Origin: Calothrix brevissima NIES-22
GTDB lineage: Bacteria > Cyanobacteriota > Cyanobacteriia > Cyanobacteriales > Nostocaceae
Assembly (NCBI RefSeq): GCF_002367995.1
Contig: NZ_AP018207.1
Location: 6,336,646-6,400,645 of the forward strand
DNA length: 64,000 nt
Direction of reading: 5' to 3'
The position numbers and the translations under genes are program-made. A model generated the notes under the pieces. It saw only the letters and a program-made list of their open reading frames with translations. It did not search any database and had not been told where the DNA came from. Positions 22,279 through 50,858 of this stretch are shown one piece after another; the stretch's first letter is position 1, and every line of letters begins with the position of its first letter.

Positions 22279-22496
22279 ATGCTAGATATGAGCAGAAGCT
22301 TTCATTGAAGGCAATAATAAACACTATATGCCATAATAGCTATATAGCTTTAAAAGCTATATAATAAATTATTGGACTGATATCGATCAAAAGTGAGCTG
22401 GTTGAGTTATGCTAATATAGTAAAGCTTGTGCTTTGTGGCTATTCTGCGGCTACCTAACTAAAAAAAGTTAGATTATGCTCTAGAAAGTCCGTGCT

Positions 22497-22533
22497 GGCG
22501 GCATAGCCAAGTGGTAAGGCAGAGGTCTGCAAA
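22497..22533 (+). pseudogene. 5' half of tRNA-Cys, left attachment site
   Basis: These 37 bases are identical to the first 37 bases of the intact tRNA-Cys at 50379, ending in the anticodon loop (CTGCAAA). Beyond them the sequence diverges completely. This is the pattern left when an element recombines in an anticodon loop and supplies its own 5' half elsewhere. No 3' half is present here, so no functional tRNA can be made. Confidence 0.9.
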
Positions 22534-26375: not shown

Positions 26376-27965
26376 ATGACAGAATCTTACATAATCAGCA
26401 CATACAGGGTACCAGAGAGTGTAAAAGTCTATGTATTAGACAATCTACTGCACTCCTATAATCAAGACACCAAAGAATTATTTGCACATATTCTATTTGG
26501 AACTAGCTACTACATTGGAAGAGATAGACACAGTCTTGAAGTAGATGAAGAAATAGGTTGGGTTCCAGTTAGCTATAACTTAATGAAGAAAAAATGGAAG
26601 AAGCCTGAAGAACTACAATGGGGTTTATTACTTGAAGATGGGTTGCTAGAGCTTAAAGTTATTCATGAAACTGAAGATGGGAAGAAGATAACTTATAGTA
26701 GAGATTATGGTAAAAGTAGAGAGTTTAGAGTACCGCTAGATGTAGTAGATCAGATATTAGATAAGTATCCCAAAGAGACATCAGAGTTTGTTGATTGCCA
26801 GTACTATAACTTGGTGGATGGTAAGAAAAAGAACCAGTTCACTAGACACAAGCTTAGTAATAAAACTGGTCATCCTATTCCAGAACTAATTCAGAGCAGT
26901 ATTAAAGCTATTAAAAGATGTGTGGTTAATGATAAAGCAGTTATGGCATATTTAAAAGATAAAGAATTTGAAGCAGAATTTAGTGGTAAAGATATAGAAA
27001 GAAGAAGATATATTAATGATAAAAACTGCTATGACTCAATTAGAGGGACAGGTATAAAGTTGTTAGAAGGTGGATTAATAGAGTATTACCCTTCCTATGA
27101 TGTTCAAGATTCTGGTAGACTAAATGAGCAACGTGGTGGCTTTCAATCCTGCTCAAGACAAATGAAACAGGTCGCTTTTAGTGATATTCCTAATCTCAAG
27201 AATTATGACCTTAAATCTAGTCAAGTCTGGGGACTTATTCAATGGTTTGAGGCAGCTAATCTTGATACTAGTTGGCTCAGATTCTACTTATCTAGAGATA
27301 AGCAAGAATATGCTAATGCTGTAGGTATATCTAAGGATAGATGGAAGCAGTGCTTTATGGCCCTAATTATGGGTGGACACTTGCCAAAGAAAGTTACTAA
27401 CAAGACTTTTGAAGATTCTACCCTAGCAATAATTAATTACCTGAATGAGGAAGCTGATGGTGATACCTCTAAAGCTCTTGAGTTATATGAAAAGTTTGTT
27501 AAACTAGTTGCCCCATTAAAAGCTGTTATTGATCAATGGCAGGATTGGTTAATTAATACCTATGTTCCACTAAGCTCTACTTATCCCAAAGGTAAGCAGT
27601 ATGTATCTAATAAGACAGGGATGACATTCTGTATATCTGACTATAGAACTAAAGATGGTAATTGGAAGGATATTAATCAACTGAAGAGAAGACTCTCAGC
27701 TTTCTACCTACAAGGTAATGAGGCAGCATTTATCCATCACCTAACTTGGGTATCTGAGCAGTATGGTTATGAGGTCATGAATAACCAGCATGATGGAATG
27801 GTTGTAATAGGTGAGATTCCTGAGGCAGCAGTTGAATATGCTAGACAGCAGAGTGGATTAAAGTATGCTGAACTTGAAGAGAAACCTTTCCTAGAAAAAA
27901 AAGAAGAAAAAGAACCAACATATAAATTTCTTTCCTTAGGAGAACTTCTTAATCTAATGAGATAG
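26376..27965 (+). CDS. family-A polymerase-like replicase
   Basis: 529 residues. The C-terminal half carries the family-A palm/fingers pattern in order. Motif A is NYDLKSSQ (Asp278). Motif B is KQCFMALIMGG, with Lys324 and the expected K-x7-(Y)-G spacing, Met332 replacing Tyr. A Q-helix AFYLQGNEAAF has Gln446 where Pol I has Gln849. Motif C is NNQHDGMVV (His472-Asp473), with Gly where Pol I has Glu. There is no 3'-5' exonuclease domain. The N-terminal 250 residues are unrecognised and may bind origin DNA. It could be a plasmid-type replication protein, a primase-polymerase or a T7-like RNA polymerase relative. It lies between inverted repeats A and B. Confidence 0.6.
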   Translation: MTESYIISTYRVPESVKVYVLDNLLHSYNQDTKELFAHILFGTSYYIGRDRHSLEVDEEIGWVPVSYNLMKKKWKKPEELQWGLLLEDGLLELKVIHETEDGKKITYSRDYGKSREFRVPLDVVDQILDKYPKETSEFVDCQYYNLVDGKKKNQFTRHKLSNKTGHPIPELIQSSIKAIKRCVVNDKAVMAYLKDKEFEAEFSGKDIERRRYINDKNCYDSIRGTGIKLLEGGLIEYYPSYDVQDSGRLNEQRGGFQSCSRQMKQVAFSDIPNLKNYDLKSSQVWGLIQWFEAANLDTSWLRFYLSRDKQEYANAVGISKDRWKQCFMALIMGGHLPKKVTNKTFEDSTLAIINYLNEEADGDTSKALELYEKFVKLVAPLKAVIDQWQDWLINTYVPLSSTYPKGKQYVSNKTGMTFCISDYRTKDGNWKDINQLKRRLSAFYLQGNEAAFIHHLTWVSEQYGYEVMNNQHDGMVVIGEIPEAAVEYARQQSGLKYAELEEKPFLEKKEEKEPTYKFLSLGELLNLMR

Positions 27966-28008
27966 AAAACCTTTCTATAAATCAAATAAATAATCTCAAA
28001 AGGAGAAT

Positions 28009-28040
28009 AAGGGAATCTATTCAGGTTCCCTTTATTTTTT
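28009..28040 (+). terminator. terminator of the replicase gene
   Basis: AAGGGAA...TTCCCTT stem with a 10-base loop followed by TTATTTTTT, 45 bases after the replicase stop codon: a clear intrinsic terminator. Confidence 0.75.
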
Positions 28041-28278
28041 ACCCTTAGTTAAATATATTAGTTAACTCTCCAAAGAAAGGAAGGAAGGAAAGGGAAAGAG
28101 AGAACAGGAGGAAGAGGAGGAAGAAGAGAAGGAACACAGATAGCATAGTACTACTATAGTAACCTCTACAACCTATATATAGTAATACTTTCAGGTATTT
28201 TACTCGTTCTCCTTGCTCCCTTTTATTGAGAATATTTAACGTAATAATAAGCCTTTCAAAAAGCTTATTGAGAATACT
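28041..28278 (+). repeat. ~240-bp element repeat, copy B
   Basis: Block order: CCCTTAGTTAAATATATTAG, a 70-base purine tract (GGAAGGAAGG..., AGGAGGAAGAGG), AGATAGCATAGTACTACTA (28138-28156), CGTTCTCCTTGCT (28205-28217), TTATTGAGAATATTTAACG, and a second TTATTGAGAATA near 28266. Copy A is its inverted counterpart and copy C a direct one. It precedes the tail gene cluster, so it may be a promoter/leader unit. Confidence 0.8.
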
Positions 28279-28455
28279 AATCCACTAATTAAATTAAATA
28301 TATATGAGGGATTGGACATTAGTAATTATTAGACCTCTAATTCATGCTTAGCACCAATCTACTAAATCCCTACCTACTAAGGGGGGATTACACATCACTA
28401 AATAATGTAGACCATTAATTTATCCCTTCATTTCCATGATAAGAATCTCCTCAAC

Positions 28456-28707
28456 TTATAGCCCAGGCAAAGGTGACCTTGGCTTTAGCGATGGGGGCTT
28501 TTCATAGCCCGACTCTTTAGTTACCTTCCATCCCTTATAATGACTTCTTTGATTAGTGACTACCTTACTCATACCTTTTTTATTTAAATTATGTATTCTA
28601 CAGAATTCTGCAAGATTATATACTATAAATTCTTCCCCTTGTGGAGAGTAAACCTTCCAATTACAGGCTTTAGTCACTTTACCTTTTAAAGCTTCACTTA
28701 TACTCAA
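28456..28707 (-). CDS. stand-alone NUMOD/homing-endonuclease DNA-binding domain
   Basis: 83 residues from a TTG start; no ATG or GTG lies in frame upstream. The YSPQGEEFIVYNLAEFCRIH and following HYKGWKV segments match the DNA-binding repeat commonly found at the N-terminus of phage HNH homing endonucleases, but no HNH or GIY-YIG catalytic part follows. It is opposite to, and only 15 bases from, the first tail gene, so it may be a domesticated regulator or an endonuclease remnant. Confidence 0.55.
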   Translation of the reverse strand: MSISEALKGKVTKACNWKVYSPQGEEFIVYNLAEFCRIHNLNKKGMSKVVTNQRSHYKGWKVTKESGYEKPPSLKPRSPLPGL

Positions 28708-28722
28708 ATAGAAAAGATAGAG

Positions 28723-29031
28723 ATGGTGCTGGGATATAACAGTCCCATCTCTTCAGTTGTCCATAGTCAGTTATCTACCAATTTCACTCAAGTAGTTTAT
28801 GACAGAGCAGTAGCAATACTAACTGATTTAGATGATATTAATGCCAAGTTAAAAGAGGCAACTGATACCAGCTATGTCACTGAATCTAGGGGTTCTAAGT
28901 TATCTTACTCTCAACATGTAAGGCACCTTAAATCTGAAGCTACAAGGTTACTGAAGGAGTTAGCCCATATTCTATCTGTAGATGTAGCTTTTAATATTTA
29001 CTTCTCTAATACCCCTAAGGCTTACTGGTAA
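28723..29031 (+). CDS. hypothetical protein at the head of the tail operon
   Basis: 102 residues, mostly helical, no family recognised. It is the first gene of the rightward tail cluster and lies 4 bases before the tail-completion gene, so a small neck or connector protein is plausible from position only. Confidence 0.45.
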   Translation: MVLGYNSPISSVVHSQLSTNFTQVVYDRAVAILTDLDDINAKLKEATDTSYVTESRGSKLSYSQHVRHLKSEATRLLKELAHILSVDVAFNIYFSNTPKAYW

Positions 29032-29035
29032 TTAA

Positions 29036-29353
29036 ATGATTTCATATAATATCAAAGCAAAAGGTTCTCTATTTTCTAATAAGAACCTATTTAAAGAAAT
29101 TTTGAGAGAATCATTAAATGAGACAGCAGACTGGGCAAAGAGCAGAGTTAAGAGTAGGACTCCTGTTATAACTGGAAGGTTAAAAGCTGGGTGGAATACT
29201 ACAACGAATCAACAGTCCTTTAACTTAAATAACCCTGTATATTATGCCCCTTATGTAGAGAGAAGAAGGGGCATGTTATATAAAACTGTTCCTGAAGCAG
29301 AAAGCAAGCTGATAAGTAACACTGAGAGATTAATTAAGGATAAAACTCAATGA
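29036..29353 (+). CDS. HK97 gp10-like tail-completion protein
   Basis: 105 residues with the pattern of the HK97-gp10/minor tail family: an N-terminal helix ending in ADWAKSRVKSRTPVITGRLKAGW, then NPVYYAPYVERRRGML and a C-terminal helix. These proteins sit at the tail top and join it to the neck. Its stop overlaps the ATG of the sheath gene (ATGA), so the two are coupled. Confidence 0.65.
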   Translation: MISYNIKAKGSLFSNKNLFKEILRESLNETADWAKSRVKSRTPVITGRLKAGWNTTTNQQSFNLNNPVYYAPYVERRRGMLYKTVPEAESKLISNTERLIKDKTQ

Positions 29354-30489
29354 CTTTATATCAGAAGCTAGCTGAAGTAGAAGATAAGATAAGTTCTATA
29401 GAAGTTAAGTTAGGGCTTCCTCAACGTAAACATCTGTTAGTAAGACATCAGACTCTAAATCAGAATAATGTTCGTCTTATAACAGATACTTTAATATTAC
29501 CTAAACCTTATATTACTAACATATCACCTCGCTTTGCTAATTTACAGGTAGCCTTTGAAGGGGTAGATGGCTTAGGGATGAGAGTAATTAACTCTCTATT
29601 AGATACACCTAACTCAGCTAGCTTTGTATATGCTATTGAGAACTCTTTTGACTACCAAGATGAGTTACCTCAAGGGTTTCTGATCTGTCCTCAGGCATTT
29701 ACCTCTTACACTCAAAATGACAGAATAGCTGTCGGGCTAGCAATGGAAGCTCATTGCTCAGACGATCAATTTGATTGGGTAGCTTTAATTGATGCAGGCC
29801 CAGAGATGAGTCTAACAGCAGCTCAATCAGAAGGACTCCTATATAACTCACCACAAGGTCACTCTAGTTTCTATTATCCCCATCTAATTGATTTAGAAGG
29901 TAATATTGTACCTCCTTCGGCAGCAGTAGCGGGGATGGCTACACGCAGATATCAAACAGAAGGTTTTGAGCAACCACCTGCTGGTGCTAAATTTCCTTTG
30001 TTAGGTGTTACTGATGTGTTTACTAAAATCAGCACTCAACAACAAGAGACAGTTAACCCATTAGGTATAAATCTTATCCGCAACCTTAGAAATAAAGGTG
30101 TAGTTGTATGGGCAATGAGAACTCGCTCTAGTAATGAGTTCTACACCTTCCTCAACACTCGTGTTATTATGAACGTGCTAAATGGCACTCTACGTAGAGG
30201 ATTTGATAATGAATTATTCTCTGCTATAGATGGTCAAGGTATGCTGTTACGCTCTATTTATGAGGCTGCTTATACTGTATGTGCTCGTCTATGGAGAGGT
30301 AAGGCTTTATTTGGTGCTACTGAGAAAGAAGCATTTGAAATTAAGTGTGACTTTGATAATAACTCTAGAGAAGAACTAGAGAGAGGAAATGTTCTCTTAG
30401 AAGTATATGTAGTTCCCGCTCCTTCTATGGAGAAATTATTAATTAATACTATTAGAGTATCTATTGGAACACTGCCTTTGCTGGACTAG
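29350..30489 (+). CDS. contractile tail sheath protein, probably truncated and fused
   Basis: From about residue 88 on, the protein is a tail sheath: AIENSFDYQDELPQGFLICPQAF, FYYPHLIDLEGNIVPPSAAV, VNPLGINLIRNLRNKGVVVW, a TRVIMNVLNGTLRRG-type segment and LEVYVVPAPSMEKLLI. Residues 1-80 (LGLPQRKHLLVRHQTL...LPKPYITNISP) do not look like a sheath start but resemble another cyanophage neck protein. At 379 residues it is shorter than usual sheaths. A deletion fusing a neck gene to the sheath's C-terminal part would explain this. The expected tube gene does not follow. Confidence 0.75.
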   Translation: MTLYQKLAEVEDKISSIEVKLGLPQRKHLLVRHQTLNQNNVRLITDTLILPKPYITNISPRFANLQVAFEGVDGLGMRVINSLLDTPNSASFVYAIENSFDYQDELPQGFLICPQAFTSYTQNDRIAVGLAMEAHCSDDQFDWVALIDAGPEMSLTAAQSEGLLYNSPQGHSSFYYPHLIDLEGNIVPPSAAVAGMATRRYQTEGFEQPPAGAKFPLLGVTDVFTKISTQQQETVNPLGINLIRNLRNKGVVVWAMRTRSSNEFYTFLNTRVIMNVLNGTLRRGFDNELFSAIDGQGMLLRSIYEAAYTVCARLWRGKALFGATEKEAFEIKCDFDNNSREELERGNVLLEVYVVPAPSMEKLLINTIRVSIGTLPLLD

Positions 30490-32159
30490 ATGGTAAATTA
30501 GATGCAATTGAAAGAAAGGCAGCTTTAAGTAGCCTAAAGGAATTAGCCACATGGGGAACTTTAGCTGGTAAAATAGCAAACTCTACTCCTCAAAACACTG
30601 CTAAGGATCTATCTAACTTTATTTCTAAGTCAGCAGGGTTAGGAGAGCTATTCAATAATAACTTATTTCAGAATAATCCTACAGTTAGGAAGAGTATTAT
30701 AAAGCAGCTTACTGGGAGTGAGGATACACCTTTAAGAGATGCTACAGAAATTTATAAAACTAAGACAAGTAGTGAATTAAGAGATATATTACTTAATGCT
30801 TTAAAACAAGATAAAGAGGTTATAGATTCTCTAACTGATTCTATAGATGGTGTATTTGGACTTATTAGTGATAGTCTATTTGGATTATATACAGGAACCT
30901 TTGGTTTATTAAGAGACTTAGACAGTAAGGCAGAAGGTAATCAGTCAGCTTTAAAGTCAATCAATAAAACTCTACTTGAAATATTTGGAGCAGATGGTCT
31001 ATTTGTCACATTATCTAGAAGTCTAGATAAAGCGGGAATTCATTTTATAGATCCAATGCGATCATTAAGTACAGTAGCAGAATCTTTCTCTTCTTGGGTA
31101 AAACATCTTAAAGATAGTTTGAATAACTTTATTAAAACAGGAGACTTAAGCCAAATTGCAAGCTTATTTAGCTTTAAAGGATTAGGTGAAAGGTTAGCAG
31201 CAGTAGTTAATAATATATTTAAGTTTTTAAATAGAGTTAATTGGAATGAAGTTTTTGGTTTTATAGGTACTAAATTAGCCGAGCTTATTAATGAGGCATT
31301 AGATTTTCTCTTTAAGTTAGACTATACTCAGATAATAAATACCTTCTCCAAGATTACAGTTGGATTATTCAATGGTATATTTCAATTTTTAATTAAGCTC
31401 GATTGGTTGAAACCTATTGCAGTGATAGTGAAAATTATTAGCTCTGCTTTAATTTCTATAGTCAAATCTATATTCGATGCTGTAATAAATATAGTTAAAG
31501 AGGCTATCTCATTAATAACTTCACCAATACAATTTGTTTTAAATTTATTAGGTAGATTTATAGCAGATACTTTTGAAACTATATTTAATATATGGGATTT
31601 TATTAGCAGAGCAATTTTCAGCTCTTTAGATACCTTAAAAGATACCTTATTAAACTTTTTTAGGGAATTTACTGTTGCCATACCATCAGTAAAAGACACC
31701 ATTAATAAAGATATAAATGTTAATGGTGCAGTTACTAATAGTAGTGTTACAAGCAGTGATAGTAATACCAACAAGAAAACTATTGAAACTCATAATGATG
31801 ATCCGTTGGGAAGATTAAGTCCTTTCAGTTTTATATATTCTATCTTTAGTAAGGTAGGTGGATTATTTCAAGGTAATAAAGCCGATGGACAAAATGTATC
31901 TACTCTATTATCAGCTATAAGCAATGAGAGAGATAAAGCCCCCTCAGGCTCGGATTTAGTAGTAGCTAATACTTCAGAGGTAATACTTAATAGGCAGCAG
32001 CAGTCTGCCTTATTGGGTGGCTTATCAGGTAGAGGTAATGTAAGTATAGGTAATATAAATATATACACTCAAGCTAAAGACCCAGAGGAAATAGGTAGGA
32101 TTGCAGTTAAGTATATTGAAAGACAATTACAAAATAATCTAGCCTACGCAGTTAGTTAA
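30490..32159 (+). CDS. tape measure protein with broken start
   Basis: Phase 3 is open from 30456 to the stop at 32159 with no ATG, GTG or TTG until an ATG at 31056. An ATG at 30490 overlaps the sheath stop but runs into TAG after three codons (ATGGTAAATTAG); adding one G (ATGGGTAAA) would join it to the long frame and give ~556 residues. The coded protein has long amphipathic and hydrophobic helices (LKPIAVIVKIISSALISIVK) and the typical C-terminus SGSDLVVANTSEVILN...NINIYTQAKDPEEI of tape measure proteins, which set tail length and may insert in the membrane. If the deletion is real, only the 367-residue part from 31056 would be made. Confidence 0.7.
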
Positions 32160-32207: not shown

Positions 32208-32990
32208 ATGAATACTCAATTAATAAATGAATTAAGTCCTGTAGATAAGGTTATAGGCATCTATGCAACTCTCGTAGATGAATTAAATAAAACAGTCTAC
32301 TCCTTTTTATTCAACCCTGAAGAGAAAACTTTCTCTAGAAGTGCATTTTATAGTGAAGGAGTAACTGCATTAACGTCCTTACCTTCCCAACAATATAAAT
32401 ATACAACTGGGCTTACTTTAACCCTGGATAATTTGCTTTTAGAATCCTATAGTCGAGGAAGAAGCTGTAAGAGTATAATGCAGGACTTACAGAAGTTAAT
32501 GGTAGCCAACCCTGCTGCCCTTAAGTATGCCCCTACTCCAGTTTATTTTAAATGGGGTAAGGATGAATTTGGCCCTGCTGTAATTACAGACTTAAAATGG
32601 AAAGAGACTCAATGGTTGAACGGTGAGGTAGCAACGGCTAGAGTGAGCTTCACTTTATTAGAAATACCAGAGAGTCAACTACCTAGAAAAGCTAAAGAAG
32701 AGACCTCTCAGAATAAGCTTAAAGCTGCCTTAAAGTCATCGAATAAGCTAACAGATAGACAGAAGGAAGAAGCTATCTCTAAAGCTAAAGGCTGGTTAAA
32801 ACAGAATATAAATAAATTCTCTGATAATATATCTTCTTTAATTAGAATAAACAAATATAAACTTTCTGTATCTGATAATGGCACTGTTAGCTTATTTAAT
32901 CAAAAGAATGTTCTATTAGGGACTGTAGGTACTTATAAAGACGGCAAACTCAATACCTCAAATAATAATTTGTCTAGAGTAAATATTTAA
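32208..32990 (+). CDS. Afp7/gp53-like baseplate protein
   Basis: The first ~160 residues match the contractile-injection-system 'tube initiator/LysM' family (Afp7-like): YSFLFNPEEKTFSRSAFYSE, LTLTLDNLLLESYSRGRSCK, YFKWGKDEFGPAVITDLKWK and ARVSFTLLEIPESQLP. The C-terminal ~90 residues are Lys-rich and helical. Such proteins link the tube end to the hub. The LysM domain itself is on the next gene. Confidence 0.65.
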   Translation: MNTQLINELSPVDKVIGIYATLVDELNKTVYSFLFNPEEKTFSRSAFYSEGVTALTSLPSQQYKYTTGLTLTLDNLLLESYSRGRSCKSIMQDLQKLMVANPAALKYAPTPVYFKWGKDEFGPAVITDLKWKETQWLNGEVATARVSFTLLEIPESQLPRKAKEETSQNKLKAALKSSNKLTDRQKEEAISKAKGWLKQNINKFSDNISSLIRINKYKLSVSDNGTVSLFNQKNVLLGTVGTYKDGKLNTSNNNLSRVNI

Positions 32991-33007: not shown

Positions 33008-33484
33008 ATGAGCACATTACCTTTATCTGAATCCTTAGCTAAGGTTATCAGAATAAGCGCAGGAGATTCTCTATCTAATATTGCAAGCCAAGTATTAGGA
33101 GATTATTCCTCTTGGAGAGAGATAGCAACTATCAATGATATAGATATCTTCAAGGCAATAGAGATAGGGCAAACCTTAACAATACCTACTAAAGAAGAAG
33201 CAGAGAGGAGATTTAAAGACCAAGCTGCTATTGAGATTAATGGTATTAACAAGGAAGTTCAATCTAGGGTTAAAGAGATATTAAACTCTAGAGAAGTTAA
33301 AACTATTACTAAGCTATTAGGAATTAATGTAGACCAGGATAAGATACTCAAGGATTTAGATTTATCTTCCATATCTAAGAGTTTGGCTGCTCCTACTAAA
33401 GCAGAGAGAATTAGGAAGGCACTTAAAACTAGTAGTTATGAACCTGAAGTACCTGTATGGAGGTTAATAGATTGGGTGCTCTAG
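33008..33484 (+). CDS. LysM-domain tail protein (P2 gpX-like)
   Basis: The N-terminal segment IRISAGDSLSNIASQVLGDY...WREIATINDI...IEIGQTLTIP is a LysM domain; the remaining ~90 residues are helical and charged. Small LysM proteins (P2 gpX, T4 gp53 domain) glue hub and tube in contractile tails. It lies 17 bases after the Afp7-like gene. Confidence 0.75.
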   Translation: MSTLPLSESLAKVIRISAGDSLSNIASQVLGDYSSWREIATINDIDIFKAIEIGQTLTIPTKEEAERRFKDQAAIEINGINKEVQSRVKEILNSREVKTITKLLGINVDQDKILKDLDLSSISKSLAAPTKAERIRKALKTSSYEPEVPVWRLIDWVL

Positions 33485-33544: not shown

Positions 33545-36430
33545 ATGGTTAATCCAAATCCAGGGCTTTCATTACTTGACCCTTATGTAAAAATCACTTT
33601 AGGCTCGCTAGGTAGTCAAGATGGAGATACATTTATTATAGGTGATGGTAAATTAATAAGTGCCTCAGTAACTCTAGGTGAAGGTAAAGTTCAATCTAGC
33701 TGTAGCTTTACTGTATTAGATCCAGATAAAAAGTTAGCTGATAAATACTTTTCTTATATTGAAACAGTAGGTGGATTAGATCCAATTCCTGATCCTGAAG
33801 CCCAATCTAATAATAGTAATACTACTCCTGTTACTGACCCAAATCAGTCAAATAGTACAGCAGGTAAAGTCATATTTGATAATGTTCAGGCTTCCACTTA
33901 TGACGGTAAAGGTAAAACAGGTGGTGGAGCTAAAGGGGCTTACGGGGATGTAATAGATTTTAATGGCTATTATGCTGCAATGGTAGATACCAAATACAAG
34001 TATGCTACTATGAGGGTCACCAACTTAGCTAACAATAAATCAGTTGTAGTTAAGGTAGTGGATAGAGGCCCATTTGCTGTAGATAGTAATGGTAATACTA
34101 TCTACCCACTAAGAGAGAATCCTACTAGAAAGATTGACTTAACTCCTAAAGCCTTTAGTGAATTAGCTCCTATTAGTCAGGGAATTATTAACGTAAAGAT
34201 TGAATGGATAGAAGCTGAGACTACCACTGCTTCATCATCTAATAAAAATAAAACTGTACAAGAAATAGTTCAAGAAGACTATCAAAAGACTAAACAGGAA
34301 AAAGCTAGTAATAATCCATTTAAAGCAGAGAAGATAGGTGACTGGCCATTACCTAAAGTTGGCCCTACTAAGTCAATATTATTAATACCAGGGCATTTAG
34401 TTGATACAAATTCTGGAGGGGGTGGAGATACAACATACAATGGTGAAAGTAGGTCTATAGAAAGTGTTGCAAATATATTAACTGTAGAAGTATTAAAAAA
34501 TGAATTATCTAAAGCAGGCTATACGGTATTAACTCCTACTACATCATCAAGAGGATTAGCAGTAGTTAAGGATGATGGTGTTTATAATTCTTCACAACAA
34601 AATGTATTCTTAGATTCTATCACTAAGTATAAAAATCAAGGATATTATGTATCAGAAATACACTTTGATGATGCTGCTGGAGGTGGAGGTGAATCAGGAG
34701 TAATTCCTGAGAGACTTAACAGCGAAAGTAATGGTAGTTCTCTTAGTGTAATGTCCGTAGCATTAGCTAATAAAATTGGATTTTTTCCTTATGGATACAG
34801 GAAAATATTAGGAGCACCAAGAAGGGGTATTTCTATGATAGAAATGGGGCCTATTTCACCATATTCTAGTTATATCTCTAGCGGTAATTATAATGGATTT
34901 AAAGCAGCTATTTTACCTACTGTTAAAAAGATAGTAGAAGCATTCAATACTGTTGCCTCAGCTAGTGCTGCCAGTAAAGCAGCCGAGTCTACGTCTACTA
35001 CTCCCACTAAGGAAGCTGTACCTACTCCAGTTACTCTAGCTGGCTCACAGATTACAGTAGAGTTGGGTTATGGTGGCAAGACAATAGCAGCTTATTCCTT
35101 TATCCATACTGGTTTAAGATTCAGTTTATTTGAACCTAATGCTCTTGAGTTCACTGGTCAAGCTGCCTCCTGGGTAATGACTCAGAGAATTAAGAATACT
35201 GTTTACCAGAATATGAGCTTTAAGAAGATAGCTCAGAGAATCACTAGTAGCTATGGCATGAAGCTAGATATGCCTGAGGAAGGCCCAACTTATAATTATT
35301 TCCCTCAGCGTGGTCAAACTGACTATGAAGCTTTACTGATTGAAGCTAGGAGAATTGGTTACAGGGTGTATACCAAGGGAGCTACCTTATCTATTAAACC
35401 TAGAGCAGGTGTCATTACAGATAAGGAGATATTTGTCCTAGAGTATGGTTCCAATATGGGTACTAGTTTTGAGGCAGTACATCAAGCTCAAAAGGATGCT
35501 GAAGGTGGGGCTAGGTCATCTGTACCAGGAGCTAATAACTCAACTGGGGAAAGGAAATATGAGATTGACCCAGATACAGGTCAAATGGTGCAGAAGAGAA
35601 AGGAGAATGTAATTGGTACTGGTAGAGATTCTGCGATCGCAACTACAGGATCACCAATCAAAGCACCTGCTCCTAAGACTACTGGTACTACTGATAAGCA
35701 GGATGCTGACAGGAAAGCTAATGAGGACAGGATTAAGGGCATTATAGCTAATGCTGACTTTCCTACTACCCCAGAAGCACTGACATTAGACCCGGATACC
35801 CCCTTCTTAACTAAAGGTATTAGTGATTCACTAGACAGAATGTGGGTAGTTGATACAGTGATTCATGTTTATAAGAAAGGGTATTTTAATACTATTATTA
35901 AATGTTATTCTCCCCTTCATAATAAAAATTACAGTGCTGATATAGCTTCTACTGATACAACAAATATTTCATCAACTACTAGTAGTCCTACAGACTTCAT
36001 AATACCAACTAAAGGTGTATATACATCAGAGTTTGGGCCCCGTTGGGGGAGAAACCACAATGGAGTAGATATAGCTGAGATATTAGGTACTCCAATTTAT
36101 GCAGCAGCATCAGGTACAGCTACTATTGGGGCAAGTGGTTGTCTCTTTTCTCCAATTGGAAATAATGTTATTAATCGTGGATGTGGTGGAGGATTTGGTA
36201 ATCATGTAATTATTAATCATGCTAATGGTTATCAAACTATATATGCTCATTTAAGTGAAATAACTATAGAAAACAATACTCAAGTATCTCAAGGTCAAAT
36301 GATAGGTAAAATGGGCAATTCTGGAGCATCTAACGGAACACATTTGCATTGGGAAGTTAGATTGAATGGTAAACCTATTAATCCAGGAAGTGTAGTTAAA
36401 CTACCTTTTTTATTAAGTCGTATATTTTAA
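33545..36430 (+). CDS. baseplate hub with three cell-wall hydrolase domains
   Basis: 961 residues, mosaic. Residues 1-75 form the start of a gpD/gp27-type hub. Residues ~108-222 form an RlpA-like double-psi barrel (VVVKVVDRGPF, RKIDLTPKAFSELAPISQGI). Residues ~276-467 form an amidase_3-like domain with His284 (LIPGHLVD), Glu301, His373 (SEIHFDD) and Glu433 (SMIEMGP) at the zinc/catalytic positions. Residues ~495-800 are the rest of the hub (FFP-type FPQRGQTDYEALLIEARRIGY, late-control-D style). Residues ~815-955 are an M23 peptidase with His838/Asp842 (HNGVDIA), His902 and His933/His935 (GTHLHWEV). All expected metal ligands are present. It should locally open peptidoglycan during tail penetration. 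Confidence 0.85.
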   Translation: MVNPNPGLSLLDPYVKITLGSLGSQDGDTFIIGDGKLISASVTLGEGKVQSSCSFTVLDPDKKLADKYFSYIETVGGLDPIPDPEAQSNNSNTTPVTDPNQSNSTAGKVIFDNVQASTYDGKGKTGGGAKGAYGDVIDFNGYYAAMVDTKYKYATMRVTNLANNKSVVVKVVDRGPFAVDSNGNTIYPLRENPTRKIDLTPKAFSELAPISQGIINVKIEWIEAETTTASSSNKNKTVQEIVQEDYQKTKQEKASNNPFKAEKIGDWPLPKVGPTKSILLIPGHLVDTNSGGGGDTTYNGESRSIESVANILTVEVLKNELSKAGYTVLTPTTSSRGLAVVKDDGVYNSSQQNVFLDSITKYKNQGYYVSEIHFDDAAGGGGESGVIPERLNSESNGSSLSVMSVALANKIGFFPYGYRKILGAPRRGISMIEMGPISPYSSYISSGNYNGFKAAILPTVKKIVEAFNTVASASAASKAAESTSTTPTKEAVPTPVTLAGSQITVELGYGGKTIAAYSFIHTGLRFSLFEPNALEFTGQAASWVMTQRIKNTVYQNMSFKKIAQRITSSYGMKLDMPEEGPTYNYFPQRGQTDYEALLIEARRIGYRVYTKGATLSIKPRAGVITDKEIFVLEYGSNMGTSFEAVHQAQKDAEGGARSSVPGANNSTGERKYEIDPDTGQMVQKRKENVIGTGRDSAIATTGSPIKAPAPKTTGTTDKQDADRKANEDRIKGIIANADFPTTPEALTLDPDTPFLTKGISDSLDRMWVVDTVIHVYKKGYFNTIIKCYSPLHNKNYSADIASTDTTNISSTTSSPTDFIIPTKGVYTSEFGPRWGRNHNGVDIAEILGTPIYAAASGTATIGASGCLFSPIGNNVINRGCGGGFGNHVIINHANGYQTIYAHLSEITIENNTQVSQGQMIGKMGNSGASNGTHLHWEVRLNGKPINPGSVVKLPFLLSRIF

Positions 36431-36434
36431 AGAT

Positions 36435-37163
36435 ATGGAACAATTATTTGAAATTTTAAATAATGCTCAAAAAGCATCACAAATAGCTTTCGATTTAGTT
36501 GGTAGAATTAATCAAGCGACCTTAGGGATAGTAGTAAATAACCAAGATCCAGAGAATAAACGTAGGATTAAAGTCTCCTTACCATCTTCTCCACAGGTAC
36601 AAAGTGATTGGTTAAGGAGACTATCAACATCACCTAATATTGATGCTCCATTACCTGCCATAGGCATGACAGTGTTAGTTCTCTTTGCAGAAGGGGTTGA
36701 GACTAATGGATATTACCTTAGTTTAATTAACCAAACTAATCCTCCTAGAGATAAAGAATCAGCACAGGATGATTATTCTGAAGCTATTCCAGGTAATAAG
36801 GTTGTTGAAGTAGGGGGCAATCTTGATGAGGTTATTAGTGGAGATACTACACAATCTACATCGGGAAATGAGGAGCATAGAACCGATGGCAACATACTTA
36901 TTGAATGTGGTCAAGCTATTACCCTAAGGACTGATTCAGGGGCATCCATTACCTTATCTAGTGCGGGATATGTGGAGATTAAAGATGTACTAGGTAGAAG
37001 AATTAGGTTAGGTGGTGTAGGGGGAGTTAATAACCAATGGGATCTTGCAGGTTACCCACTAACGGTAATTAATGCAACCTCATTTACTATTAATGGGAAA
37101 GAAGTAGCGACTGTTGACGCCACTACAAATGAGGGAGATGTAATTACTAATCGTGGGTGGTGA
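36435..37163 (+). CDS. baseplate spike (gpV-like)
   Basis: Residues ~28-95 form the OB-fold of gpV/VgrG-type spikes (LGIVVNNQDPENKRRIKVSLP, GMTVLVLFAEGVETNGYYL). A repetitive beta-rich stem follows (EVGGNLDEVISGDTTQSTSG, ILIECGQAITLRTDSGASI) that would form the needle. It follows the hub gene by 4 bases, the usual order. Confidence 0.8.
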   Translation: MEQLFEILNNAQKASQIAFDLVGRINQATLGIVVNNQDPENKRRIKVSLPSSPQVQSDWLRRLSTSPNIDAPLPAIGMTVLVLFAEGVETNGYYLSLINQTNPPRDKESAQDDYSEAIPGNKVVEVGGNLDEVISGDTTQSTSGNEEHRTDGNILIECGQAITLRTDSGASITLSSAGYVEIKDVLGRRIRLGGVGGVNNQWDLAGYPLTVINATSFTINGKEVATVDATTNEGDVITNRGW

Positions 37164-37395: not shown

Positions 37396-37743
37396 ATGAC
37401 AATACAAAAAGGGATAGCTTTCCCATTACAAATTGACCCAATCAGGGGCAACTTAAAGGTAGCTAGTGAAGGGGAACTTACTAAGGGACATATATTATCT
37501 TGGCTCCAGACAGAGGTATTTGAAAGGGTAATGAGACCAACTTATGGATTAAAAGACCCTTTATTTAACTCTATTGATGCTATGTCAAGAATAACAGTTG
37601 AGATAGAGTCAGGATTAGAGCAATATATCCCTACTGCTTCATTTCAAGTAAGTGGTTCTATTAATGATCAAGGTCAAGTAGTAATTTTAATTTACTGGTA
37701 CTACTTAAATGAGGAACAATTACCTATTTCAATTATTTTTTAA
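37396..37743 (+). CDS. baseplate wedge protein gp25/gpW-like
   Basis: 115 residues with the gp25-lysozyme-like family pattern: IAFPLQIDPIRGNLKVASEG, WLQTEVFERVMRPTYGL and ITVEIESGLEQYIPT. It is the most conserved wedge component of contractile systems and initiates sheath assembly. It lies 12 bases before gene J. Confidence 0.85.
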   Translation: MTIQKGIAFPLQIDPIRGNLKVASEGELTKGHILSWLQTEVFERVMRPTYGLKDPLFNSIDAMSRITVEIESGLEQYIPTASFQVSGSINDQGQVVILIYWYYLNEEQLPISIIF

Positions 37744-37755
37744 CAATAATTTAAT

Positions 37756-38934
37756 ATGACTGATATATCATCAATACAATTGTCGAGTGTGATCATTGAT
37801 GAACGTACAGAGGAGGAATTAGTCTCCCAAGCCCAACTTAGAGTATTTAATGCCTCAGGAGGTCAATTAAATGATTTCTCTGAGAATTCGCCTGTAGCTG
37901 CCTTAATTCAAGGTCAAGCTTTTGCTGCTTCTGAACTTCTCTACTGGGTAAATAAACTTCCATTAGCTCTGGTAATAGATTTCTTAAAGGTCACTGGTGT
38001 AGAGCAATCTCTAGGTACTAAGGCAGTAACTACTCTTACATTTACCCTTACTGCACCTCAATCAACTCCCTTTACTATTCCAGAGGGGTTTGAAGTAGTA
38101 GATTCATCTGGTACTTATTCATTCTTCACTGATGCTACTCTTCAGATACCTCCCGGACTTATGGCTGGTTCTGTAACTGCTACTGCTGAGGAAGTAGGTA
38201 GCCAGTACAATCTATCAGCTTACACAATCACTAGAGCTACTCAGCCCCTTAGCTTCTTATCCTCAGTAGTTAATACTGAAGCTTCCTTAGGGGGAACTGA
38301 TGCTGAAACATTAGATCAAACCATAAGTAGAGGATTAACTGAATTAAGAATTAGAAATCTAGTATCAGAAGATGATTATGAAACTGCTGCTGAGGAGATA
38401 TTAGGTCAAGGATCAGTAGCTAAAGCAATAGGTTTACTATCTAGAAATAAGAATGAGGAAGAGTTAGGGGCAGTACATTTATTTCTCCTAAATGCCAATC
38501 AGGAACCCGCTAATGATGCTCAAATTAGTTTAGTAAGTGATTCATTAAGCAAGAGAATTCAACTAGGTACACAGCTTTATATAAGCCCAATGGAGCTTAT
38601 AAGTATCAGTGCATCATTGATAGCCAGAGTAACAACTGGAGCCAATGTTGAACAGGTTATAAATGATTTATGGGAAGCTTATCAAAGCTACCTTAACCCT
38701 TCTACTTATCCACCTGGTCAAGATATTATTCTTAATGAAGTAGAGTATCACCTAAGGCTAACTGAGGGTATTAAGAATATCCAAACACTTGCATTAAATG
38801 GATCTCCTACTAATATATCTTTACCTAATTTATATACTCTACCTTCACCATATTCATTATATGTTCAGTTAGTAGATGGCAGTAGAGTGATATATGCAGG
38901 TGTACGTGGTGCTGGAGAGACTCCTGATTTTTAA
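37756..38934 (+). CDS. baseplate protein J
   Basis: 392-residue gpJ/gp6-type wedge protein, recognised by FNASGGQLNDFSENSPVAALIQGQ, EGFEVVDSSGTYSFFTDA and ETLDQTISRGLTELRIRNLVSEDDYE. The length is typical. It starts from ATG in an AT-rich leader (AATTTAATATG). Confidence 0.85.
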   Translation: MTDISSIQLSSVIIDERTEEELVSQAQLRVFNASGGQLNDFSENSPVAALIQGQAFAASELLYWVNKLPLALVIDFLKVTGVEQSLGTKAVTTLTFTLTAPQSTPFTIPEGFEVVDSSGTYSFFTDATLQIPPGLMAGSVTATAEEVGSQYNLSAYTITRATQPLSFLSSVVNTEASLGGTDAETLDQTISRGLTELRIRNLVSEDDYETAAEEILGQGSVAKAIGLLSRNKNEEELGAVHLFLLNANQEPANDAQISLVSDSLSKRIQLGTQLYISPMELISISASLIARVTTGANVEQVINDLWEAYQSYLNPSTYPPGQDIILNEVEYHLRLTEGIKNIQTLALNGSPTNISLPNLYTLPSPYSLYVQLVDGSRVIYAGVRGAGETPDF

Positions 38935-38936
38935 TT

Positions 38937-39548
38937 ATGACTACATATGAAGCTTGGGTAATAGAAAAAGCCCCAATATTTTCAAGACTCCCAGAAGTGT
39001 ATAGAGATAATCCTGTAACCCAATATTTAGTAACCTTCTGGGATGAGTTATTAATATCAACTAAAGATAAGATTGATGATCTACAGCAAAGGCAGCTTAA
39101 CCCATTAACTTGTGATTCTAACTGGCTTGATTTCTTAGCTCCTTTATGTGGCTTTACAGGCATATATTGGGATAAAAACTGGAAAGAAAATTATAAAAGA
39201 AATTTATTATTCTACTCCTATACTAAAATCTGGTCTAATAAAGGTAGCAGAGAAGCTCTTAGTACAGTTTTATTCTGCTTTGAGATACCACATGAGATTG
39301 CTGGTAGAGGAGATTTTATCTTTGGGCAATCTAAATTAGGACAAGACCCATTAGGTAAATCAGGTTGGGAATATACTGTATACCTAAAGACAATGTATAG
39401 AGATACTCCTCAAGTAGAACTAGTTAAAAAGTTAATTAAACTCTTTGGGCCTTGCTGGTGTAAAGCAGATATTAAATTTGATGATTCTGTTATTAAGGAT
39501 TACCTAATACTTGATGATAATCAACTCATTGTTTACACACTTTTATAA
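38937..39548 (+). CDS. tail protein I (P2 gpI-like)
   Basis: 203 residues. SRLPEVYRDNPVTQYLVTFWDELL and CDSNWLDFLAPLCGF are the usual gpI-family start; the mid part is NLLFYSYTKIWSNKGSREAL. gpI joins wedge J to the fibres. It begins 2 bases after the J stop, so it is coupled. Confidence 0.8.
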   Translation: MTTYEAWVIEKAPIFSRLPEVYRDNPVTQYLVTFWDELLISTKDKIDDLQQRQLNPLTCDSNWLDFLAPLCGFTGIYWDKNWKENYKRNLLFYSYTKIWSNKGSREALSTVLFCFEIPHEIAGRGDFIFGQSKLGQDPLGKSGWEYTVYLKTMYRDTPQVELVKKLIKLFGPCWCKADIKFDDSVIKDYLILDDNQLIVYTLL

Positions 39549-44103: not shown

Positions 44104-46617
44104 ATGAAATTATCATTAGGATTAGGCTTATTTTATAGCAATATTTTATCTACAGGAAATAAGCCTCCTGTAGTCAATGGCTATCAAGCAGATAGAGTTT
44201 TAATAGGTGGAGGGGGATTTATTTTAGGGGTAAGAAATCATCCCCAAGAAGCTGGACTATCTTATATATTTACTGACGTAGGAGGAGCTTACAAGCTTAA
44301 TTCAAGTACTAATAAATGGGATGCAATTACAAACTTTCCTTACTTTGATGCTTCTCCAGGACAGCAGTATGGTGTTGAAGACCTTGCTCTAGATCCCTCT
44401 AATCCTAATGTAGTTTATCTCTGTTCAGGAAAGTATTCTACCCAAGGTGTAAAAGGGGATTTCCTTAAGTCAACAAACAAAGGAGCTACTTGGAGTAAAT
44501 TAGGCTTAAATGTCTACTTTGGGGGCAATAATGCTGATCGTCATACTGGCTCTATGGTTCAGGTATCACCCCATGATAGTAATCATATAATTGTAGCGAC
44601 TCGTCATGAAGGCATTTGGTTAACTTTCAATGGTGGTTTAAGTAGTAATGATTGGATTAGCTCTAATTTAATTCCATGCACTCCTTATGTACAAAAATCT
44701 TCATGGAATATATCTAGAGCTATTAGATCTGTACACATTGATAAACTCGACCAAAATATAGTATATGCAGCATTATCTGACCAGCCATATACTCTATACA
44801 ATGGAACAAGTATAACCCCTTATTCCACTGCAAATGCAGGTTTATATAAATCAACTGATAAAGGTTTAAATTGGAGTAAGGTTGATAATCAACCAGCAGG
44901 ATTAACTAAGATTAATCGTATTGCTCAATCTAGTAATGGTACTATCTGGATAACACATACTACAGGCTTCTGTAAATTAAATACAAATGGTACATTTACT
45001 AATTACACTAATACTACTCTTGGTATAGGCTCTACTGGATTTGGAGCTATAGCTGTATCCCCATTTGATCCATTAGAAGTTACTGTAATGACTTATGGTA
45101 ATTATGCTAAAACAAGGATATTTAGAACCCTTAATGCGGGTTCAACTTGGAGTGAAATTACTTATACCTATCAAACAATGCCTTGGTCTACTCCAAGTGC
45201 TAATGCACATTATTTAACTACTAATGTGCCTGATTGTTCTTATAACAATCACATAGCAAGTAATAAGCCAGATGAACTTTATTTCACTTCTTTCTTTGGT
45301 GTATATAAGACCACTAATTCTAGAGCTACTACAGCTTATTTTGAGCTACCTATAGAACATGTTGAGGAATTAGTAACCTTAGGTTTGTTCTGCCCACCAG
45401 CTTCTAATACACGTAGTATTCCCTCATTAATATCAGCTAATGCTGACATAGGAGCATTTGTTCATGGTAATGGGTTTGATCAATATCCCAGCTTACATGT
45501 TGATGATTATTTCCTTACACTAAGTCAACATAGTAATAGGGCTAATTATCCAAGGGATATAGCTTTCTGTATGCAGCAACCACAGCATATGGTTCTATCA
45601 GGTACTCGCAATTTTAGCCCCTATGGAAATATTCTTTTAGTTAGCTCTGATGCTGGATCTACTTGGACACCTACAGCATCATTACCTCCTGGAATATCTA
45701 CCTCTACTAGCGGGATAGATGGTACTCCTCAGGCTCCTAGAATAGCTTACTCAGCTACTACCCCAGGGGTATTTTTAGTTAGTAGAACCAACGGTGAGCC
45801 ATGCTTGACTGTTAATAATGGTAATACTTTTATCACTAGTGCATCTGATGATAAGCCAGGTGGAGATCCCTACACTCAATTTAGCTGGAAGTTTACTCTA
45901 GCTGCTGACAAAGTCAATGGTAATAAGTTCTATTACATAAAGGATTACCAATTGTGGTTAGCTACTTGGAATGGTTCAACCACATCTCCCAGTTATACCT
46001 GGCAATTAATCAACCCTTCGACTGGATTAAGTAGCTCTCATACATATCAAGGTATATTGACTGCTCCAAATCAAACAGGTCATCTGTGGATATATTCAAG
46101 CTCTACTTCTACTAATTCCCCTAAACTAGCTAAATCTGTAGATGGTGGATATACTTTTACCTCAATAACAGGATTTGACAAAGTAATCCTTGCTGCTATT
46201 GGTAAGGGATCTGGGGCAGAAGGAGATGCTGACTATACTGTATATGCTTTTGGATCTCGCAGTAACGTATGGGGTGTATATCAATCTGTTGATTTAGGTA
46301 ATAATTGGAATCTATTAGATACTGGAGATCTCAATATAGCTAATGATCCTAACTGTATGGCAGCAAGCTTACAGACTTTTGGTGAAGTATTTATTGGATC
46401 TAATGGCTCTGGTATTTATTGGATAACTCCTAAACAATCAGAGTTGCAGGGTATTCTTCTAAGAGAAGATGGGGATTACCTTTTAAGAGAAGATAGCTCT
46501 TATATACTGCAAGAAGATTTTACAAATAATCCTGTTTCCAACTTACTAAGAGAAGATAGTTATTCTCTTCTAAGAGAAGACAACTCACTTTTACTAAGAC
46601 AAGACAATATTAATTAA
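44104..46617 (+). CDS. GH74/sialidase-like beta-propeller tail protein
   Basis: 837 residues. The opening RVLIGGGGFILGVRNHP...IFTDVGGAYKLN (Asp58) and LALDPSNPNVVYLCSGKY followed by FLKSTNKGATWSKL are the signature of GH74 xyloglucanases and other tandem seven-blade propellers. BNR-like blades recur (GLYKSTDKGLNWSKV, KTRIFRTLNAGSTWSEI). Probably a polysaccharide depolymerase or receptor-binding spike for the cyanobacterial sheath. The final ~60 residues are six degenerate LLREDxxYx repeats, a likely trimerisation or attachment tail. Catalytic competence cannot be proved by reading. Confidence 0.7.
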   Translation: MKLSLGLGLFYSNILSTGNKPPVVNGYQADRVLIGGGGFILGVRNHPQEAGLSYIFTDVGGAYKLNSSTNKWDAITNFPYFDASPGQQYGVEDLALDPSNPNVVYLCSGKYSTQGVKGDFLKSTNKGATWSKLGLNVYFGGNNADRHTGSMVQVSPHDSNHIIVATRHEGIWLTFNGGLSSNDWISSNLIPCTPYVQKSSWNISRAIRSVHIDKLDQNIVYAALSDQPYTLYNGTSITPYSTANAGLYKSTDKGLNWSKVDNQPAGLTKINRIAQSSNGTIWITHTTGFCKLNTNGTFTNYTNTTLGIGSTGFGAIAVSPFDPLEVTVMTYGNYAKTRIFRTLNAGSTWSEITYTYQTMPWSTPSANAHYLTTNVPDCSYNNHIASNKPDELYFTSFFGVYKTTNSRATTAYFELPIEHVEELVTLGLFCPPASNTRSIPSLISANADIGAFVHGNGFDQYPSLHVDDYFLTLSQHSNRANYPRDIAFCMQQPQHMVLSGTRNFSPYGNILLVSSDAGSTWTPTASLPPGISTSTSGIDGTPQAPRIAYSATTPGVFLVSRTNGEPCLTVNNGNTFITSASDDKPGGDPYTQFSWKFTLAADKVNGNKFYYIKDYQLWLATWNGSTTSPSYTWQLINPSTGLSSSHTYQGILTAPNQTGHLWIYSSSTSTNSPKLAKSVDGGYTFTSITGFDKVILAAIGKGSGAEGDADYTVYAFGSRSNVWGVYQSVDLGNNWNLLDTGDLNIANDPNCMAASLQTFGEVFIGSNGSGIYWITPKQSELQGILLREDGDYLLREDSSYILQEDFTNNPVSNLLREDSYSLLREDNSLLLRQDNIN

Positions 46618-50269: not shown

Positions 50270-50378
50270 TAAATTGGCTAGTTGAGCTATGCTAGTGTAG
50301 TTAAGCCCGTGCCCTAGTGGCTACTTTTTTGGCTACTCAAGAGCTAAAAGTAAGGTAAGATGAATAGAAGCCTATGCT
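50270..50378. promoter_or_regulatory. tRNA-Cys promoter region with recombinase-site-like repeats
   Basis: About 110 bases are clearly related (roughly three-quarters identical by eye) to the stretch upstream of the left tRNA fragment (about 22380-22496). It includes paired TGGCTACT motifs spaced 12-13 bases apart near 50330-50350. If the element boundary is at the tRNA, this promoter is brought by the element itself and keeps the tRNA expressed. Confidence 0.5.
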
Positions 50379-50450
<72 letters not shown>

Positions 50451-50740: not shown

Positions 50741-50847
50741 ACTGGGGTAAAACTGGGGTAAAAATGTAAGGTAGAGGTATTTACCCCAATAAGTGTTTCT
50801 GGGGTAAAACTGGGGTAAAGTGGAAGGATAAAGGTCTTTACCCCAGT
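50741..50847. promoter_or_regulatory. GGGGTAAA direct/inverted repeat array upstream of the integrase gene
   Basis: ACTGGGGTAAA occurs in tandem at 50741 and 50752, CTGGGGTAAA at 50799 and ACTGGGGTAAA at 50809; the inverse TTTACCCC lies at 50780 and 50837. This forms two ~57-base units of [direct, direct, inverted] ending 12 bases before the integrase ATG. It is likely bound by the integrase (autoregulation or arm sites) or by a repressor. Confidence 0.7.
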
Positions 50848-50858
50848 TGATTGCTTTT

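Follow-up and report, generated by a model that had tools for sequence, protein, structure and literature searches.

The closest described counterpart of the protein considered here is gp15, the baseplate hub of the Anabaena phage A-1(L), which carries three extra domains: a lysozyme (residues 56-265), an endoglucanase (266-430) and a peptidase (736-899) (PMC10966104). That report describes lysis of Anabaena cells by the endoglucanase and peptidase domains, the loss of either expression or activity in single mutants of the catalytic residues, and a LysM in gp16 (PMC10966104). Among tail-associated wall hydrolases of other phages, gp13 of phi29 is an M23 D,D-endopeptidase (PMC9662197). Here we describe a 961-residue protein encoded in a stretch of 64,000 nucleotides from Calothrix brevissima NIES-22 (contig NZ_AP018207.1, positions 6,336,646 to 6,400,645), the whole of which is referred to below as the window. 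We consider it probable that this protein, now part of a defective prophage, served a contractile-tailed cyanobacterial phage resembling A-1(L) as baseplate hub and tail lysin, and that its lytic modules, an RlpA-like double-psi barrel (DPBB), a divergent Amidase_3 domain and an M23 peptidase, are exchanged as cassettes.

The hub gene is one open reading frame (ORF) at 33545-36430 of the forward strand, with an ATG start, 961 codons and no internal stops, exactly where an earlier note, made from the DNA letters, had placed it. The split gpD-type hub proposed in that note is borne out by the comparison with known structures. The best match of the protein among PDB sequences is the A-1(L) hub, 8kea_A (E 1.3e-39), and it falls in two main stretches in the same order, with residues 12-105 matching 3-94 of 8kea and residues 450-805 matching 376-726; the two matches are separate, and the hub barrel is therefore split by a long insertion. 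A profile built from eight hub cores finds 8kea at E 6.3e-53, while Pfam gives a weak Phage_GPD match at residues 539-595 (E 0.076). Read from the sequence, the order of the parts is hub N-segment, RlpA-like DPBB, amidase-like module, hub core and M23 peptidase. In A-1(L), Pfam places DPBB_1 at residues 292-379 of the 'endoglucanase' stretch (E 2.1e-17), which is therefore a module of the same kind as the RlpA-like domain of the window. A hub with three hydrolases has already been published and is hence not new; what is different here is that an amidase-like module replaces the lysozyme. The earlier note had marked the protein as novel on the ground that phage hubs usually carry one lytic domain, an argument that falls with the three domains of the nearest solved hub. 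Among the literature matches listed, no title or abstract opening names a hub with an amidase module, which we do not take as a claim that none is in print.

Of 388 genomes in the class, 16 contain relatives of the hub core, a count that includes the window's genome; five of these match weakly, with short ORFs of 359-388 codons. Hub relatives are present in Nostoc, Anabaena and Leptolyngbya phages, and a search of the genome contigs collection with the whole hub returned a single locus, which matches over the M23 part only.

The M23 domain is assigned by Pfam to residues 837-947 with 98.6 bits against a cut-off of 28.7 (E 2.4e-28). The motifs described for this family, Hx3D and HxH (PMC9662197), are present as His838/Asp842 and His933/His935, so that the three ligands predicted earlier (His838, Asp842 and His935) are joined by His933. 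In an alignment of 15 hubs, the window counted, His838, Asp842 and His902 are invariant and His933 and His935 are conserved in at least 90%. On sequence grounds, membership in M23 is certain and the ligand set complete, and the predicted peptidase is the safest of the three activities. The RlpA-like domain is likewise recovered: DPBB_1 (PF03330) matches residues 150-219 at E 7.8e-10, with 39.3 bits against a cut-off of 28.8.

The amidase-like module is recognized through profiles. A profile from all 20 members (eight phage-type copies and 12 cellular relatives) has one PDB match, the endolysin amidase 3qay (E 8.3e-4), which is the catalytic domain of the CD27L endolysin (PMC9929850), and hhalign aligns the eight phage-type copies with six host Amidase_3 domains at 90% and E 1.5e-6. 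Seven of the eight phage copies also match a PHROG named baseplate protein. The zinc site of these amidases comprises two His and one Glu, with an additional catalytic Glu (PMC9929850), and His284, His373 and Glu433, three of the four ligands that had been predicted, are conserved in 20 of 20 aligned sequences, the window counted. The fourth, Glu301, fares less well, as it is kept in all eight phage-type copies but in only one of the 12 cellular ones (L109), and in the hhalign alignment the Glu at the ligand position of the host domains faces Glu306. All 20 sequences have a Glu exactly 19 residues ahead of a Gly, some with a second such Glu, and the same spacing is seen in the host domains counted (L046, L048 and L049) and in 3qay. 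We propose that Glu306 acts as the zinc ligand and that Glu301 is probably wrong. The module would then be a very divergent Amidase_3, with a fold predicted from these alignments; the domain claimed in the earlier note is thus borne out in part, by its profile and hhalign matches, and remains below the Pfam cut-off.

The combinations in which these modules occur were surveyed by a blastp comparison of 31 protein rows with modules cut from these proteins. The tape-measure-like L059 and the duplicate L037 (equal to L086, the sole pair above 95%) were dropped and the two halves L057/L071 were merged, which gave 28 hub genes; these were gathered by similarity to the window hub, so the sample is biased. 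A DPBB is present in 15 of these hubs, an amidase-like module in seven and M23 in 26 (in A-1(L) by Pfam), with a CHAP-like end instead in two. Eleven of the 28 have three assigned modules, and the combinations vary: DPBB, amidase and M23 in six hubs (the window, L069, L031, L073, L076 and L057/L071), DPBB, lysozyme-like and M23 in four (L070, L072, L075 and A-1(L)), and GH19, amidase and M23 in one (L058). A further four (L074, L077, L078 and L080) have DPBB with M23 and no other assigned module, and the L082 ORF has core and M23 only. 'Lysozyme-like' denotes blastp similarity to the A-1(L) lysozyme, and Pfam names neither of the two such stretches scanned alone (L070 and L081). The inserts of L035/L085, L038 and L079 carry no assignment. 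The cassette of L079 (5437-5985, with the motif HHDGG...GTAGCL) was considered as an L,D-transpeptidase from its motif; it reached no Pfam cut-off and had no PDB match, and the assignment was rejected. In the related L057/L071 the break in the hub gene lies between amidase module and core, and no Rfam family accounts for it.

Comparison of the window hub with its nearest relative, L029, reveals uneven divergence between backbone and lytic modules. Amino acid identity is 88% in the N-segment, 77%, 91% and 91% in the first, second and third linkers and 91% in the core, as against 62% in the DPBB, 41% in the amidase and 58% in the M23 module; the last 40 residues of the core drop to 65%. At fourfold-degenerate sites the two genes differ at 46 of 205 positions in the backbone, taken as N-segment, linkers and core, whereas the lytic modules differ at 60 of 108 (Fisher p 8.9e-9, a value that is optimistic in that the borders were set after the protein alignment had been viewed and sites within one gene are not independent). 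Since the silent sites differ too, exchange of whole modules is preferred over selection on the protein alone, and the pattern suggests that whole lytic modules have been exchanged between phages. The contrast is a different one with L031, where M23 is 80% identical but the core 72%, and with L073 and L076 the pattern is blurred because the linkers diverge too. The hub gene of L029 is itself interrupted just before the HxH motif of M23 by a group I intron (L029:9272-9551; RF00028, 84.9 bits), after which an HLHW stretch follows. The M23 reading frame of L029 stops at this intron and is therefore not taken as a lost domain.

The state of the surrounding prophage is evident from comparison with the relative G389 (L041, L029 and L042), in which PHROGs identify terminase, portal, scaffold, capsid and tube genes. 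Of 31 of its ORFs compared with the window, 16 have no match there, including all of these and two small genes that lie between those for tube and tape measure; the G389 sheath match in the window begins at residue 183 and that of the tape measure at 145. The tube and capsid proteins have no match anywhere in the window's genome, in searches in which G129, G164 and G389 do match, and terminase and portal have no match in the window, the only region searched for them. Judged by its gene content, the prophage is defective, without capsid, portal, terminase and tube genes; the losses and truncations are seen in the part at 26376-32159. The IMG/VR contig G388 is 100% identical to the window over 26376-52097, deletions included; it may come from the same strain and is not independent proof of the deletions. 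The element is flanked by 41-bp repeats that are likely its attachment site. Yet an integrase at 50847-52097 lies outside these repeats.

The earlier note had expected the three modules to cut three types of bond, and for the DPBB this expectation has to be set against its possible use as a domain for binding or positioning on glycan, which would leave the hub with two activities, amidase and M23. The window DPBB has an Asp in the motif VVDRGPF, which by alignment we take to be the catalytic Asp of RlpA; no residue numbers for RlpA were found by literature search. The His of a TAAH motif also has a role in RlpA, and at its position the window has a Met. This His is lacking from the aligned column in 14 of 14 prophage DPBBs and is present in A-1(L) and in both of two host DPBB proteins, although L069 and L031 have a His two residues beyond it. 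In these same two proteins the Asp is replaced as well, by Ser and Thr respectively. Both losses weigh against an enzymatic DPBB, as does the description of E. coli RlpA, which has Ser in place of the catalytic Asp of RlpA, as inactive and structural (PMC9712689). However, the Asp is retained in the other 12 of the 14 prophage DPBBs, and the counterpart in A-1(L) is reported to lyse cells (PMC10966104). On balance, we give the non-enzymatic role slightly less than an even chance, and glycan cutting by the window DPBB is possible, not established; cutting of all three bond types stays a prediction, as the DPBB has its presumed catalytic Asp but not the TAAH-type His.

For the amidase-like module, several results count against our assignment. 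Amidase_3 is absent from the Pfam listing for the whole 961-residue protein, and for the window module scanned alone it reaches 13.3 bits against a gathering score of 27 (E 0.088); no curated family reaches its cut-off, and the window copy has no NCBIfam listing. With E values up to 10 allowed, Amidase_3 is listed for four of the eight phage copies and, by subtraction, for none of the 12 cellular relatives. The hhalign match to host amidases spans the first half of the module only, with the C-terminal half outside it, and weakens to 84% over 52 columns after the 12 cellular relatives are added. A profile from the eight phage copies alone finds no PDB amidase and gives two chance-level matches (E 0.3 and 0.43), and in a MAFFT alignment of the 20 sequences a gap separates Glu306 of the phage copies from the Glu of the cellular ones, which do not share one column. 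These observations would be expected if the module were another zinc hydrolase with a similar active-site layout, or an inactive descendant, and not an N-acetylmuramoyl-L-alanine amidase. We consider this unlikely, as Amidase_3, listed for 4 of 20 members, is the sole Pfam family to appear for at least two, NCBIfam AmiC appears weakly for one of the 20 (E 0.17), the one PDB match of the larger profile is an endolysin amidase, and the His, His and Glu named above are present throughout. The locus as a whole might also be read as a working tailocin or contractile injection element, in that it lacks head genes but has intact ORFs for hub, spike, wedge and fibre. With no tube and no full sheath, a contractile tail is not expected; the tape measure is truncated too, and the rest of the genome yields no tube gene in a search that does recover one from G129 and G164. 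This reading was rejected for its incomplete tube and sheath genes and is very improbable. Because the prophage is defective, any present function of the hub is doubtful, a further point against a tail lysin at work today, and the hub probably serves no infectious particle in this strain.

The A-1(L)-type hub and tail lysin most likely acted in the ancestor phage. There, a trimer of the hub, with its barrel divided as in A-1(L), would encircle the spike; tail contraction would drive the spike through the outer membrane, and the modules would make a local opening in the peptidoglycan for the tube. In this process M23 would cut bonds of the stem peptides, the amidase would strip stem peptides off the glycan, and the DPBB may cut the glycan or merely bind it. 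Exchange of the modules as whole cassettes, via the more conserved linkers, would explain their uneven divergence. A partnership of RlpA with amidases has been proposed (PMC6895207), which suggests a relay within one protein; against such a relay are the four of 28 hubs that have DPBB and M23 without another assigned module, and the two of six hubs with DPBB and amidase that lack the Asp. More broadly, cyanobacterial phage hubs could be combinatorial wall-opening heads, with one backbone and two module ports, re-armed by homologous exchange through conserved linkers, and the set in the window (LytM/M23, Amidase_3 and RlpA-like DPBB) could copy the host's septum-splitting relay, the amidase baring glycan for the DPBB to cut. 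We offer this broader proposal as a speculation that is rather unlikely to hold in full.

The amidase-like module is not confined to hubs. A search of viral contigs with the first three copies of the module gave 13 loci, the window's own contig among them. L055-L058 are hub ORFs, and the other nine (L059-L067) are tape-measure-like by eye, with ORFs of 2,152-3,256 codons, some of which run off the locus. In all nine, M23 is followed by the amidase-like module, and six also have an SLT-like stretch, for which L059 scores 21.0 against 21.3 bits in Pfam. The listed pairs among L059-L067 are 74-100% alike, and the nine therefore represent few independent cases. Among the 388 genomes the module is present in 46, of which 44 belong to one other family (f16) and the remaining two are G129 and the window's own. 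The f16 copies are free-standing, in open frames of 253-358 codons (loci L104-L121); the six proteins inspected look secreted by eye, and the two scanned over their full length receive no name from Pfam. They are probably an unnamed, secreted cyanobacterial protein family with an amidase-like module. The module has no relatives in the phages collection, and the DPBB and amidase stretch has none in the plasmids collection.

These observations place the multi-hydrolase hub of A-1(L) in a wider context, as apparently one state of a family that combines and exchanges lysozyme-like, GH19-like, DPBB, amidase-like, M23 and CHAP modules. The hub family offers a testable set for finding out which bonds of the wall have to be cut for a phage to enter a cyanobacterium. 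Through the amidase-like module it is linked to the unnamed, probably secreted cellular family, which belongs to cyanobacteria with small genomes. In our view the apparent module exchange, the reuse of modules in tape-measure-like proteins and the cellular family are the more interesting results.

The genes around the hub follow the order LysM protein, hub, spike, gp25 and wedge, and their coordinates are given in the table together with those of the hub modules, the remnant genes and the repeats. Two further genes of the window lie away from this cluster. One, at 26376-27965, encodes a 529-residue protein that is 78% identical to its G389 counterpart and looks polymerase-like by eye, with no Pfam match and one weak PHROG. 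The other, at 44104-46617, follows fibre-like genes and encodes an 837-residue protein with repeated S-x-D-x-G-x-T-W-like motifs, again seen by eye.

Table. Positions of the hub, its modules, neighbouring tail genes, gene remnants and repeats in the window.
Feature	Position	Strand	Evidence or remark
Baseplate hub with inserted wall-lytic modules, 961 residues	33545..36430	+	ORF; 8kea_A match E 1.3e-39
N-terminal segment of hub barrel (residues 1-80)	33545..33784	+	Residues 12-105 match 8kea 3-94
RlpA-like DPBB module (residues about 107-228)	33863..34228	+	Pfam DPBB_1; DRGP catalytic-Asp motif kept, TAAH-type His absent
Divergent Amidase_3-like module (residues about 275-466)	34367..34942	+	His284, Glu306, His373 proposed zinc ligands; Glu433 proposed catalytic
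Main part of gpD-type hub core (residues 499-800)	35039..35944	+	450-805 match 8kea 376-726
M23 peptidase module (residues about 815-955), full ligand set	35987..36409	+	Pfam E 2.4e-28; 9gy1 E 3.9e-23
LysM-type baseplate protein, likely counterpart of A-1(L) gp16	33008..33484	+	PHROG endolysin and baseplate matches; directly before hub, as in A-1(L)
Tube-initiator-like protein	32208..32990	+	Position; CIS_tube E 3.5e-5, below cut-off; phrog_33886 (unknown function) E 3e-21
Central spike (OB-fold, gpV-like)	36435..37163	+	Phage_base_V E 2.4e-7
gp25-like sheath initiator	37396..37743	+	GPW_gp25 E 0.0095, below cut-off; PHROG baseplate protein E 2.1e-6
Baseplate wedge gene	37756-38934	+	phrog_6 wedge E 1.2e-32
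Tail protein gene	38937-39548	+	phrog_32946 tail protein E 1.4e-46
Remnant: start of neck-position gene fused to sheath residues 183-477; sheath N-terminus missing	29350..30489	+	tblastn with G389
Tape-measure remnant, about 144 N-terminal residues lost; tube gene and two chaperone-position small genes missing before it	30456..32159	+	G389 comparison
41-bp direct repeat (5' half of tRNA-Cys), likely left attachment site	22493..22533	+	Second copy 50375-50415
Right repeat copy and intact tRNA-Cys (50379-50450)	50375..50450	+	Partner of the copy at 22493-22533

Compared with known wall hydrolases, the amidase-like module shares with Amidase_3 (PF01520; CD27L 3QAY and AmiP) the GH motif, the second His and the final Glu, and by hhalign, though not in the MAFFT columns, a Glu in the same register. 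It differs in scoring below the Pfam cut-off, in its position inside a hub and in the distance from the first His to the Glu, which is 22 residues in the window module and 15 in AmiP (PMC9929850). The DPBB resembles the septal lytic transglycosylase RlpA in its DRGP Asp; unlike RlpA, it has no His at the TAAH position, and no SPOR domain is among the Pfam matches of the hub protein. Phage phi29 gp13, whose second domain is a lysozyme, is also a virion-associated M23 wall hydrolase, but it is not a baseplate hub of the window's type. The nearest relation is to A-1(L) gp15 (PDB 8kea), with which the window hub shares 28% identity in the core. In A-1(L) the lysozyme precedes the DPBB, whereas in the window the DPBB precedes the Amidase_3-like module, and the A-1(L) DPBB has the TAAH-type His that the window DPBB lacks. 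Conversely, the M23-like domain of A-1(L) (L009, residues about 736-899) is without the first ligand His in the alignment, yet activity is reported for it, while the M23 of the window has all ligands. The two proteins have in common the split barrel, the insertion of modules after the N-segment, a DPBB and a C-terminal M23-like peptidase, and in both phages the gene for a LysM partner lies immediately upstream of the hub gene.

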